Positions 15,408-63,136 of a DNA stretch of 64,000 bases are shown here, piece after piece (position 1 is the stretch's first letter; every line of letters begins with the position of its first letter). Origin of the DNA: Ilumatobacteraceae bacterium (GTDB lineage: Bacteria > Actinomycetota > Acidimicrobiia > Acidimicrobiales > Ilumatobacteraceae); contig JAWPMO010000001.1 in NCBI GenBank assembly GCA_033344875.1, positions 1,451,595 through 1,515,594 on the forward strand. The letters run 5' to 3'. The translations under genes and the position numbers were made by a program. Below the pieces are notes generated by a model that made no database searches, was not told the origin of the DNA, and saw nothing but the letters and a program-made list of their open reading frames with translations.

Positions 15408-15745
15408 TCTCCGTCGAGGCTCAGCTACGCAAGTCCACACATCGCCATTGCTGACGATCGAATGCGAAGGGTCTACCTTCCACTCCCAGGATCACGCCAC
15501 CCAATCGGCCGGCCACCGGCACCTGCACATTTCGGCGCACAGAATCTCGATCGCCACGTCTGCAACCGCGCCACAGAACGGCCCAAGTCGCGCACCGCAC
15601 TTTCACCGGCATAACGATCCAGCCGAGCACCCGATATTCACGTGAGCGAGACGGCAGCACCTCGGCTGACAACCTCAGTCTGCTCTATCTCATCTGCCCG
15701 ACGAGATCGGAAACCCTGTCACACCCTTTCGTCAGGATGGGTGGC
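15408..15745 (+). promoter_or_regulatory. Gap upstream of the first DUF222/HNH gene, with a conserved promoter-proximal element
   Basis: Most of the gap shows no gene. Its last 38 bp, from about 15708, contain CCTGTCACACCCTTTC followed by the -10-like CAGGAT 7 nt before ATG 15746. The same arrangement lies upstream of the second DUF222/HNH gene at 58921. The SOS palindrome seen there is absent here: only a degenerate half (GATCGG) occupies that position. Confidence 0.55.
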
Positions 15746-17014
15746 ATGAAGGATCCGGTGCTCTCCCAGGCGTTGGCGGCGCTCGATGGCGCCGACATCG
15801 CGGCGAGCGACGACGCCGGGTGCGCTGCGCTGCTGGCGTCGATCACCAAGGTGCAGGGGTGGCTCTCGTCGACCGAGGCCCGGGTGACGTCCCGCATGCG
15901 AGAGCTGCACGCCACCTCGGGGTGCATGCCTGCTTCCGATCGGCACACGATCGAAGGTGGGGTGTCGTCGGCAGAGGGCAAGCGCAAGGAGCGTCGTTCC
16001 GAGGCGATCGACGACGTCCCGTCGTTCGGCGAGGCGCTGGCCGACGGCCAGATCGGCGCCGAGCACGTCGACGCGCTGGCCAACGCCTCGGCCAAGCTCG
16101 ACGACGAGGTGAAGGCGCGGCTGTTCGAGGACGAAGACGAACTGCTGGCCGAGGCGGCGTCGATGTCGCCCGAACGGTTCGGTCGCTCCGTTCGTGAGCG
16201 GGCACGCCGGCTCGAACGCGATCAGGGCCTCGAGCGCAACCGCCGCCAGCGACGCGACACCTACCTCTCCCGCAAGCTCAACGGCGCGACCGGCATGATC
16301 GAAGGGCGGTTCGCCTTCCACCCCGAGCTCGCCAACCAGATCTTCGGCGCGGTCGACCTCGAGGTCGCTGCCATGGTGGCCGAGGGCGAGCAGCGGGCCG
16401 ATCCCGAGTTCGCCGACCGTCGTGTCGATCGCAACCGGCTCGCCGCCGAGGCGCTCGGGCGCTTGGTCGGCGGCGGCCACCAGCAGATTCGACCAGCCGA
16501 AGCCGACATCACGGCGATCGTCGACGTCACCACCGCCGAAACCGGCGAGCTCCACGACCACAGCGTCTGCGAAACCGACGATGGCGCCGCACTGCCGCCG
16601 GCCAGCGTGCTCCGGCTCCTGTGCAACGGGCGGGTCACCCCGATCTACGTCGATGCCGACGGCAACCCGCTCGCCGTCGGCCACACCACTCGACACGCCA
16701 ACCGAGCCCAACGCCAAGCACTGCGAGCGTTGTACCGCACGTGCGGCTTCGGCGAGTGCGACACGCCGTTCGCACGATGCGAGATCCACCACGTCCTGCC
16801 GTGGCAGCTCGGCGGGCCGACCGATCTGGCGAATCTGATCCCGGTCTGCAGTCGCCACCACCACGTCATCCACGATCACGGATTGATCCTCGATCTGCTC
16901 CCCGACCGAACGTTGACCGTGGCTCGCCCGGATGGCACGGCGGTCTTCACGTCCGAACCCGACGTGCCATCGCGACGATCCACTCGATCGCGGCGACGAA
17001 GGACCGCAGCGTGA
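15746..17014 (+). CDS. DUF222 domain HNH endonuclease (13E12 type) 1
   Basis: A 422-residue protein with an N-terminal helical DUF222 region (about 1-320) and a C-terminal HNH nuclease module. The module begins with a Cys pair in RTCGFGECDTPF, then CEIHHVLPWQLGGPTDLANL, LIPVCSRHHHVIHD, giving the His-His, Asn and final His/Cys set of an HNH beta-beta-alpha-metal site. The basic tail RRSTRSRRRRTAA may contact DNA. ATG 15746 is chosen over 15737 because it aligns with the start of the paralogue at 58921. Such proteins are multicopy in actinobacteria and related to the mycobacterial REP13E12 family; their role is not established. It has an upstream element in common with the second copy. Confidence 0.88.
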   Translation: MKDPVLSQALAALDGADIAASDDAGCAALLASITKVQGWLSSTEARVTSRMRELHATSGCMPASDRHTIEGGVSSAEGKRKERRSEAIDDVPSFGEALADGQIGAEHVDALANASAKLDDEVKARLFEDEDELLAEAASMSPERFGRSVRERARRLERDQGLERNRRQRRDTYLSRKLNGATGMIEGRFAFHPELANQIFGAVDLEVAAMVAEGEQRADPEFADRRVDRNRLAAEALGRLVGGGHQQIRPAEADITAIVDVTTAETGELHDHSVCETDDGAALPPASVLRLLCNGRVTPIYVDADGNPLAVGHTTRHANRAQRQALRALYRTCGFGECDTPFARCEIHHVLPWQLGGPTDLANLIPVCSRHHHVIHDHGLILDLLPDRTLTVARPDGTAVFTSEPDVPSRRSTRSRRRRTAA

Positions 17015-58871: not shown

Positions 58872-58887
58872 TCGAACGTCAGTTCGA
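58872..58887. promoter_or_regulatory. LexA-binding SOS box
   Basis: TCGAAC GTCA GTTCGA is a perfect match to the actinobacterial SOS operator TCGAAC-N4-GTTCGA. It lies 33 bp upstream of ATG 58921, where it would cover the -35 region of that gene. Confidence 0.75.
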
Positions 58888-58908
58888 AACTCTGTCACAC
58901 CCCTTCAT

Positions 58909-58914
58909 CATGAT
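58909..58914 (+). promoter_or_regulatory. -10 element of the second DUF222/HNH gene
   Basis: CATGAT is 6 nt before ATG 58921 and follows TCTGTCACACCCCTTC, the block shared with the upstream region at 15708-15745. Confidence 0.45.
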
Positions 58915-58920
58915 GGGGGC

Positions 58921-60297
58921 ATGAACGACGCAGAGGTGCGCACGGCGGTGGAGGCGCTGGTCCAGACCGACCTGTCGGTCGCCGGCCATGCCGAGCTGTC
59001 CGACGCCGGGCGGGCGGTGGCTCGGCTGCAGTCGTTCGTCGATCACGCCAAGGTGCAGATCGCCCGACGTGGCCGGCAGCTCGCCGCCGAGGGCGACACG
59101 TCGTCGGCCCACACCCTGATCGACGAGGGGCGGTGCACCGGCTCCGACGCCAAGCACACCGACGGCCGCGACCGGGTGTGCGGCGACCTGCCCGAGTTCG
59201 AGGACGCACTGGCCTCCGGCGCCGTGACCGGGGCCCACCTCGATGCACTGGCACACCACACGAAGTCGCTGACCGACGAAGAGCGCTCCGATCTCGCGGC
59301 GATCACCGACGAGCTGATCGCCGACGCCACCGACCAGCCACCGGCGCTGTTCGACCGGACGGTCAAGGGGCGTATCGACGCGATCCGCAACCAGCACCGC
59401 CCCGACGACGCCGCCGAAGAGCTCGACCGGCAACGCGCCGCCTCGTGCGTGAAGCGGTGGACCGATCGCGACACGGGCATGAAGAACACGATGCTGTCGC
59501 TCGACCCGATCCGAGACGCGTCGCTGTGGAACGTGATCGACCACCACCTGGCTCGCTTGCGGCACGATCCTGCCAACGCCGATCGGCCGTTCGCCCAGCT
59601 CCAGGTCGAGGCCGTGCTCGCATCGGTCGACGCGACGGCGGGCGCTCAGCGGATCCCCGAGATCGTCGCCCACGTCGACCACCGGTCGCTGTGCCATGGC
59701 CGCCACGCCGACACGCTCGCCGAAACCGCCGACGGCACTGGGCTTCCCGTGGCGACGGTCCAACGACTCTGCTGCGAGGCGATCATCCAAGCGGTCGTCG
59801 TACGACCCGACGGCACCGTCGATCGGCTGTGCGCCGAGCAGCGGACGGCCGATCGCCGTCAACGTCGGATGCTCGAGGCGATGTACTCGTCGTGCGCTCA
59901 TCCGCACTGCGCGGTGTCGTTCACCGCGTGCCGCATGCACCACGTGACGTGGTGGACCAAGGGCGGCAAGACGGTGCTCTCGAATCTGCTGCCGTTGTGC
60001 GAGACGCATCACCACCTCGTCCACGAGGGTCGGTGGAGCCTCGAGATCGCCAACGACCGTGCGGTCACCTGGCTCCGGCCCGACGGCAGCGTCTGGCTCA
60101 CCGACGCCGGCCCCGATCGCACGATGACGCCACGGGCCGGGCCACCGGCCAGGGCCTCGGCCGACCGGTGCGAGCGACCGCCCGGCCGGCCACCCCCTGC
60201 CGCCACCCACGACGAACCCGTCGGCGACGGTGGCCGCGAACCCGGCGAGCCGACCGGAAACAGACCGGCACCGGACGGACAGACGAGCCTCCTCTGA
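58921..60297 (+). CDS. DUF222 domain HNH endonuclease (13E12 type) 2, SOS-boxed
   Basis: A 458-residue paralogue of the protein at 15746. The DUF222 region covers about 1-310. The HNH module has SSCAHPHCAVSFTACRMHHVTWW and LSNLLPLCETHHHLVH, with the paired His, Asn and final His needed for a metal-dependent nuclease, and zinc-type Cys pairs. A disordered Pro/Gly/Arg tail of about 70 residues (after TWLRPDGSVWL) is longer than in paralogue 1. A perfect SOS box upstream implies induction by DNA damage. Related mycobacterial 13E12 genes include known LexA targets. Confidence 0.88.
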   Translation: MNDAEVRTAVEALVQTDLSVAGHAELSDAGRAVARLQSFVDHAKVQIARRGRQLAAEGDTSSAHTLIDEGRCTGSDAKHTDGRDRVCGDLPEFEDALASGAVTGAHLDALAHHTKSLTDEERSDLAAITDELIADATDQPPALFDRTVKGRIDAIRNQHRPDDAAEELDRQRAASCVKRWTDRDTGMKNTMLSLDPIRDASLWNVIDHHLARLRHDPANADRPFAQLQVEAVLASVDATAGAQRIPEIVAHVDHRSLCHGRHADTLAETADGTGLPVATVQRLCCEAIIQAVVVRPDGTVDRLCAEQRTADRRQRRMLEAMYSSCAHPHCAVSFTACRMHHVTWWTKGGKTVLSNLLPLCETHHHLVHEGRWSLEIANDRAVTWLRPDGSVWLTDAGPDRTMTPRAGPPARASADRCERPPGRPPPAATHDEPVGDGGREPGEPTGNRPAPDGQTSLL

Positions 60298-60696: not shown

Positions 60697-60778
60697 CACG
60701 CCGAGCTCGACGGTCTGTCGCCGATTCCGCCGTAGGGTGGTGCGTTCCCGTTTTCCGGGACCGGTACAGAACGAGAGC

Positions 60779-63136
<2,358 letters not shown>

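Follow-up and report, generated by a model that had tools for sequence, protein, structure and literature searches.

A 13E12-type HNH endonuclease gene of Acidimicrobiia with a LexA box and a PafBC-like promoter element, and the apparent damage control of its family

Introduction

The closest described systems to the one considered here come from Mycobacterium tuberculosis, in which ten HNH genes of the 13E12 kind belong to the LexA regulon (PMC4181829) and five RecA-dependent HNH endonucleases have been reported after mitomycin C (PMC8151990). Our subject is a 64,000-nucleotide stretch of DNA from an Ilumatobacteraceae bacterium of the class Acidimicrobiia (the window, positions 1451595-1515594 of a genome that forms a single contig of 4.97 Mb and is 99.65% complete, here G000), near the end of which the gene for a 13E12-type HNH protein, P0001, is preceded by an exact LexA palindrome, or SOS box, TCGAAC-N4-GTTCGA. 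A sequence-only reading of the window had noted that some mycobacterial members of this family are LexA targets; this is indeed in print, and the idea is thus not new for mycobacteria. As in M. tuberculosis, an HNH 13E12 protein stands under the same palindrome. The accessible parts of the M. tuberculosis papers describe one species and control by LexA and RecA, whereas the arrangement set out below extends over many families of the phylum and includes a PafBC-type element beside, or instead of, the box.

PafBC reprogrammes the housekeeping RNA polymerase and is triggered by single-stranded DNA (PMC11804915), and its motif in M. tuberculosis is given as TGTCGG, TGTCAG or TGTCAC, followed by N10-TA-N3-T (PMC8151990). 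Mycobacterial recA is under both PafBC (RecA-NDp) and an SOS box (PMC8223512). The same pairing is found at recA in the host's bacterial family and at the P0001 gene, with the differences that the -10 sequence at the latter is CATGAT and not TA-N3-T, and that the distance from the box to the PafBC-like element behind it is 5 nt there, compared with 19-101 nt at recA of the host's family. The REP13E12 loci of M. tuberculosis are likewise multi-copy 13E12 genes, their place in the same family being taken from the name; they are frequently recombined, are subject to gene conversion and, in the part of the source available, are given no defined biological function (PMC13061034). There the recombination is put down to gene conversion, whereas here the copies stand in unrelated flanks, with similarity ending at the promoter and near the stop codon.

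We consider it likely that this gene encodes a chromosomal HNH endonuclease of the 13E12 kind whose expression is induced by DNA damage, and the 13E12/DUF222-HNH family as a whole appears to be expressed upon DNA breakage. In undamaged cells, a dimer of LexA bound to the box would lie over the -35 region and block RNA polymerase. Upon damage, RecA on single-stranded DNA would trigger the self-cleavage of LexA, and PafBC, activated by single-stranded DNA, would recruit the polymerase through the adjoining TGTCAC element, with the result that the nuclease would be produced during DNA repair. The argument is built on sequence elements, their enrichment and fixed spacing, homology and an intact catalytic motif; from these we infer that LexA and PafBC bind, that the gene is induced, where transcription starts and that the protein is a nuclease.

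The LexA box and the LexA motif of the host genome

The palindrome at 58872-58887 is exact and ends 33 nt before the ATG at 58921, as the sequence-only reading had it, and would occupy approximately positions -49 to -34 relative to the predicted start site. It is the sole exact TCGAAC-N4-GTTCGA in the window. Matches with at most two mismatches number 20, against a shuffle mean of 5.7, and because weak matches are so frequent, only the exact site stands out. Genome-wide, 12 exact boxes were counted, compared with one match to the reversed control pattern; eight of the 12 are upstream of 13E12-type HNH genes (one of them, L077, truncated), one is before imuA-imuB and three are inside other open reading frames. 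At least 18 family genes are encoded in the genome (16 of 47 candidates were scored), and a rough binomial estimate for eight exact boxes among 18 such genes gives 1e-20, a figure to be taken as an order of magnitude only, with one gene, L086, having been found through its box. A box with up to two mismatches precedes 13 of the 18, or 12 of 17 if L086 is left aside, and a PafBC-like motif within one mismatch precedes six, three of which are without a box. In the paralogue L084, an exact box has the same placement relative to the same PafBC-like element.

The truncated gene, L077 (G000:C1:83779-84947), has an exact box, and its frame stops within the HNH core, immediately ahead of the final HH; frames resembling serine and tyrosine recombinases are its neighbours, as judged by eye in L002.

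That the box fits the actinobacterial LexA motif, a further claim of the sequence-only reading, is borne out by the SOS genes of the host. Single-mismatch versions of the motif stand before lexA (CCGAACAATCGTTCGA) and recA (CCGAACGGTTGTTCGA), and imuA-imuB has an exact box upstream (ImuB was identified by PF00817 and ImuA by eye). Judged by these matches at lexA, recA and imuA-imuB, TCGAAC-N4-GTTCGA is the LexA motif of this genome. The region upstream of lexA (L091) contains several LexA-box-like sequences, suggesting multiple operators. In the host's bacterial family, a box with no more than two mismatches was found before recA in all of 30 loci and the reversed control in none of the 30; these are the loci returned from 54 genomes with a match, the host's own included.

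The PafBC-like element

Five bases past the end of the box begins a second element, TGTCAC-ACCCCTTCAT-CATGAT, which we call PafBC-like because it departs by one base from the published motif. The sequence-only reading had overlooked this element and proposed control by LexA; the LexA motif is there, and with a PafBC-like element adjoining it LexA would be only half of the picture. The order, box first, is that seen at recA of the host. A start approximately 7 nt beyond CATGAT would coincide with the ATG, which would make the mRNA leaderless. As for the regulator, the genome encodes PafC (PF19187, E-value 6e-27) beside a WYL-WCX protein that we take, by position and domains, to be PafB.

The published PafBC motif occurs exactly upstream of recA in the host genome. 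A looser form, TGTSACACC-N7-YANNNT, referred to here as the Acidimicrobiia form, occurs at 13 places in that genome, against three for the reversed control: before recA, an SSB-like gene (851777), the rpsF-ssb operon (3278654), rmuC (3798272), a CoiA-like gene (295246), a tyrosine integrase gene (1878492), four family genes and three others. The SSB-like protein narrowly misses its Pfam cut-off; rpsF and the accompanying ssb were identified by eye. Before the 30 recA genes described above, the Acidimicrobiia form is exact in 19 and within two mismatches in 29 of 30, and the reversed control is absent from all 30.

A set of 54 near family genes was chosen among the listed places at which the match started in the first 33 residues. 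Exact matches to a relaxed pattern number 21 at the spacer used, one at spacer 4 and none at spacer 10; with one mismatch allowed, the corresponding counts are 23, 13 and 7. This relaxed pattern was shaped in part on Acidimicrobiia sites, and any claim about the phylum is therefore made from the strict pattern only.

Extent across the phylum and turnover of the promoter

DUF222 (PF02720) was found in 48 of 119 sampled actinobacterial genomes, with at least 20 matches in the richest. For the survey of promoters, 66 DUF222 genes from 36 genomes and 16 families were picked by hand among the best-scoring places listed, with a preference for matches near the start of the domain and for different genomes; three loci in which the match started deep in the domain were dropped (L194 and L201 of 29 new loci, L224 of 40 fetched). 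Only 16 or 17 candidates per genome were scored in both searches, so copy numbers are lower limits, and the sampled genes are not independent and favour high-scoring members. Controls were coding stretches, reversed patterns and shuffles, and not other promoters.

A LexA box with at most two mismatches lies upstream of 49 of the 66 genes (37 within one mismatch), compared with four of the 66 coding controls, and at least one gene with a box was found in 30 of the 36 genomes and 13 of the 16 families. The occurrence of the LexA motif before this family is thus not limited to mycobacteria. When all 20,480 palindromic dyads were ranked, with none chosen beforehand, TCGAAC-N4-GTTCGA came first. 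The strict PafBC pattern, TGTCR-N11-TANNNT, is exact upstream of 25 of the 66 genes and none of the coding controls, or 24 versus none when the sixth base of the published motif is included, and its two halves pair at spacer 11 in those 25 genes but in at most one at eight other spacers from 7 to 15. One element or the other precedes 57 of the 66 genes (four in the coding control) and both precede 17. In 40 sets of dinucleotide shuffles, the LexA box, the PafBC pattern and either of the two were found on average 1.55, 0.2 and 1.8 times, with maxima of 5, 1 and 6.

Taking the phylum-wide and near genes as one set of 120 under a combined rule, 53 have the LexA box only, 25 the PafBC motif only, 23 both and 19 neither; in the 120 coding controls the rule finds six LexA boxes and no PafBC motif. 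On a quick maximum-likelihood tree of the 120 proteins, in which 31 of 117 inner branches are weak, the two single-element states, LexA-only and PafBC-only, are separated by a minimum of 12 changes, and the distinction between any element and none needs 15. That most sampled members carry one of the two elements, with so many exchanges between them, points to damage induction itself as the retained feature, and suggests that damage control is largely retained across the family while the means of achieving it change. A complete genome from the host's genus, G019, has no exact LexA box, yet at least ten PF02720 genes, and its sampled family genes have a PafBC-like promoter in five of seven cases and a box with two mismatches in two of seven.

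Amplified copies in one genome and the extent of the copied unit

The family is amplified in G116, a genome of 2.46 Mb from the host's class, with 31 exact boxes, nearly all of those listed having ATAT as the core. Twenty were fetched, of which 19 lie upstream of family paralogues and one, by eye, upstream of ruvC. Three of the paralogues were checked against Pfam; all three passed PF01844 (HNH) and one passed PF02720, and one sampled copy is short, at 99 amino acids. All 19 show the two elements fused in one geometry: the last base of TGTC-N12-TANNNT is at the same time the first of the box, within which the ATG also falls. Fourteen of the 19 have the published PafBC form, and the sites had been selected for the exact box, not for the PafBC motif.

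In G019, in G079, in G024 and among the closest pairs of G116, paralogues with approximately 84-95% protein identity are alike only over a stretch that starts 29-96 nt before the ATG and ends at most about 100 nt past the stop codon; outside it, identity is at chance level. For many pairs of G116 this stretch opens exactly 29 nt upstream of the ATG, where the PafBC motif begins with TGTC. Over 72 pairs with at least 75% nucleotide identity, the upstream extent has a median of 33 nt (range 29-153) and the downstream end lies between -124 and +231. Because similarity is confined to that stretch, promoter plus gene looks like what was copied.

The HNH protein

P0001 contains the C-x4-C, HH, N, C-x2-HH nuclease motif between residues 325 and 368. 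In an alignment with 119 other family proteins, with denominators that count the proteins reaching each column, C325 is conserved in 118/118, C330 in 116/117, H341 in 116/117, N355 in 97/115, C360 in 113/114 and H364 in 107/114. The protein has no match to PF02720 at E-values up to 10, and its match to PF01844, at 15.3 bits, is under the cut-off of 21.4 bits. It is 31% identical over 413 residues (E-value 1e-52) to the window's second family protein, which exceeds the cut-offs of both Pfam models, and relatives at E-values of 1e-20 or below occur in 56 of 101 genomes of the host's bacterial family. Its earlier description as a DUF222/HNH nuclease of the 13E12 type holds for the full-length homology and the intact HNH motif and fails at the level of Pfam, where PF02720 is unmatched and PF01844 falls below its cut-off; lacking a PF02720 match, P0001 is called a divergent homologue and not a Pfam DUF222 member. 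We assign it to the 13E12-type HNH proteins as a divergent representative whose core is intact and which presumably has nuclease activity. The features are collected in Table 1.

Table 1. Coordinates in the window of the P0001 gene, its candidate control elements and a second gene of the family
Feature	Position	Strand	Basis
Candidate LexA operator (SOS box), exact TCGAAC-N4-GTTCGA 6-4-6 palindrome, TCGAACGTCAGTTCGA	58872..58887	.	motif match
PafBC-like promoter element, TGTCACACCCCTTCATCATGAT	58893..58914	+	one mismatch to published motif
Predicted -10 hexamer, CATGAT	58909..58914	+	sequence read-out
HNH endonuclease gene, divergent 13E12/DUF222-type homologue, 458 amino acids (P0001)	58921..60297	+	homology
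HNH nuclease core, C325 to H368 (C325, C330, H340-H341, N355, C360, H363-H364)	59893..60024	+	alignment of 120 family proteins
Second family gene, DUF222 (PF02720, 72.6 bits) and HNH (PF01844, 28.3 bits)	15746..17014	+	profile matches
PafBC-like element of the second family gene, TGTCACACCCTTTCGTCAGGAT	15717..15738	+	motif match

With phage relatives lacking, a phage-carried homing endonuclease was set aside as a candidate. Searches that used the window's second family protein as query found no relative in viral contigs, and partial matches in one of 50,697 phage records and four of 72,556 plasmid records. For the suggestion of the sequence-only reading that these proteins may act on mobile DNA, relatives of this query are thus nearly absent from phage and plasmid records, while the gene unit itself shows signs of dispersal. 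A search of contigs with P0001 returned two loci, both in one low-coverage metagenome-assembled genome (L142 and L143). Searches of PHROGs gave mostly HNH-core matches, and those of NCBIfam, with both window family proteins, only HNH-core matches far under the cut-off.

Weighing of the readings

Several observations weigh against the reading of this locus as a damage-inducible nuclease gene. Conservation of the box before orthologues, on which the sequence-only reading had staked its proposal, is not seen in the four nearest homologues: L073 (65% identity), L142 (65%), L143 (64%) and L093 (56%) are all without a LexA box within two mismatches. All four retain the PafBC-like half plus an ATGATGG- or AGGATGG-type start, with the published spacing in L073, which is a paralogue from the host's own genome (one mismatch to the Acidimicrobiia form), and in L143, which comes from the same metagenome-assembled genome as L142 (no mismatch). 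As the nearest homologues are without the box and keep the PafBC-like half, the box looks like a local addition; it was probably gained here on an older PafBC-like promoter, a direction of change that we infer, and the site, on this comparison, is a motif call rather than a conserved operator of this locus. Among ten homologues at 45-55% identity, a LexA box with at most two mismatches precedes seven (L074, L094-L098 and L102; none in L099-L101), and the PafBC-like form within one mismatch precedes none of the ten. By eye, the box of L094-L098 and L102 (46-55% identity) lies within a TTGAC-type core promoter and not a PafBC-like one.

The second element, too, is subject to reservations. At 58909 the P0001 promoter has CA for the published TA; the -10 lies one base beyond the published spacing in L142 and L093, as it does in L079 and L082 of the host's own genome, in which the TGTSACA half is present. 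The published PafBC form is exact before only 12 of the 30 recA genes (coding control 0) and three of the 54 near family genes. With exact matches so few in these sets, the Acidimicrobiia variant is our own reading of the motif. Of the 17 phylum-wide genes with both elements, 15 have the PafBC motif ahead of the box, the opposite of the order at the P0001 gene, and neither element was found in nine of the 66 phylum-wide and ten of the 54 near family genes.

The class-wide picture is similarly mixed. At least one exact box is present in 47 of 60 genomes, and 30 exact-box loci were examined, each from a different genome apart from L271 and L283, which represent a single site of G116. One locus (L261) was classed as an HNH gene by the pattern test, and L271/L283 is a further family member; by eye, others lie at recA (four), ruvC and DnaE2-like genes. 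Exact boxes upstream of HNH genes are thus a small minority across the class, a lower limit given that the strict HNH text pattern misses many true members, and such genes dominate the exact boxes in some genomes, not all. As to the protein, P0001 and a 19-row profile were compared by sequence with the PDB; the matches lay in the HNH core (IscB among them), with a few weak ones in other places, leaving the DUF222 part with no PDB sequence relative beyond the HNH core and weak matches at chance level. An AlphaFold model of P0001 from a two-row alignment, with a mean predicted local distance difference test score of 49.9, was too poor and was not used for fold searches.

How far these points favour other explanations can be judged from the elements themselves. 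That the exact box is a chance palindrome without function is extremely improbable in our view: its absence from the four nearest homologues would fit, but eight of the 12 exact sites of the genome stand before this family, and L084 repeats the arrangement of box and element. It also seems unlikely to us that LexA alone controls the gene, the downstream TGTCAC being part of an ordinary core promoter and PafBC uninvolved. In favour of this, the LexA box is the commoner of the two elements phylum-wide, and most of the 13 host family genes with a box have no PafBC-like motif; the element nevertheless matches the geometry of the published PafBC motif and is conserved at recA, its 13 places in the host genome take in recA, rpsF-ssb, the SSB-like gene, rmuC, the CoiA-like gene and four family genes, and 25 of 120 family genes under the relaxed rule have it with no LexA box, as do eight of the 17 box-less phylum-wide genes under the strict one.

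Such a nuclease may serve repair processing, self-dispersal or cell death, and our guess is that a break-processing or self-dispersing enzyme is to be preferred over a phage-borne one. The M. smegmatis HNH nuclease MSMEG_1275, which may or may not belong to the 13E12/DUF222-HNH family, cleaves DNA and kills when overexpressed (PMC9416677), and L077, behind an exact box, is truncated inside the HNH core; both points would fit a nuclease that executes the death of heavily damaged or infected cells. We nonetheless hold this to be very unlikely: 18 or more copies in one genome are hard to reconcile with a suicide gene, four of five overexpressed HNH genes caused no great growth inhibition in the accessible results of the same study, and PADLOC gave only two weak matches (E-values 0.018 and 0.009). 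A minimal dispersing nuclease gene, in which promoter and open reading frame form one unit that moves or is duplicated through break repair, with the damage promoter confining expression to the time of that repair, is compatible with damage induction and is something we entertain, though doubtfully. The paralogue pairs that share only promoter and gene speak for it, as do the many G116 pairs whose shared stretch opens precisely with the TGTC of that promoter. It is drawn from the extent of similarity between copies, however, and gene conversion between paralogues, as described for REP13E12, also confines homology to a shared unit; conversion could maintain such identity and would not by itself explain the first dispersal.

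Discussion

Damage induction of a chromosomal HNH endonuclease, the reading that we prefer, would concern a family, 13E12/DUF222-HNH, that is numerous in actinobacteria and most sampled members of which carry one of two independent damage-control elements, and extends a PafBC-type motif to Acidimicrobiia. Among the literature searched, with most subscription literature outside its scope, there was no paper joining DUF222 with SOS and no comparative-genomics paper on the actinobacterial LexA regulon and HNH genes. The spread of the arrangement over the phylum, the presence of a second element and the fusion of both in the G116 promoters appear to be new. That genome offers a concrete test set, with 31 perfect boxes and, before 19 of the 20 fetched, family genes with a PafBC-type motif. 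A more far-reaching proposal, which we think distinctly unlikely, is that promoter and HNH gene form a self-dispersing chromosomal unit of approximately 1.3 kb without other parts, one that hears both damage sensors (loss of LexA and activation of PafBC), is made only during break repair and spreads through repair into unrelated sites. Were this true, 13E12 would be a selfish or domesticated nuclease lineage, and the damage promoter its only conserved outside feature.

Other features of the window

The second gene of the family (Table 1), for which an alternative ATG at 15737 is possible, has no LexA box within two mismatches upstream. Beyond the P0001 gene, at 60737-61500, a frame of the DEAD-box helicase type, recognized by eye, opens with a long, acidic, repeat-like leader containing TDTTDTD and DNDNDN runs.

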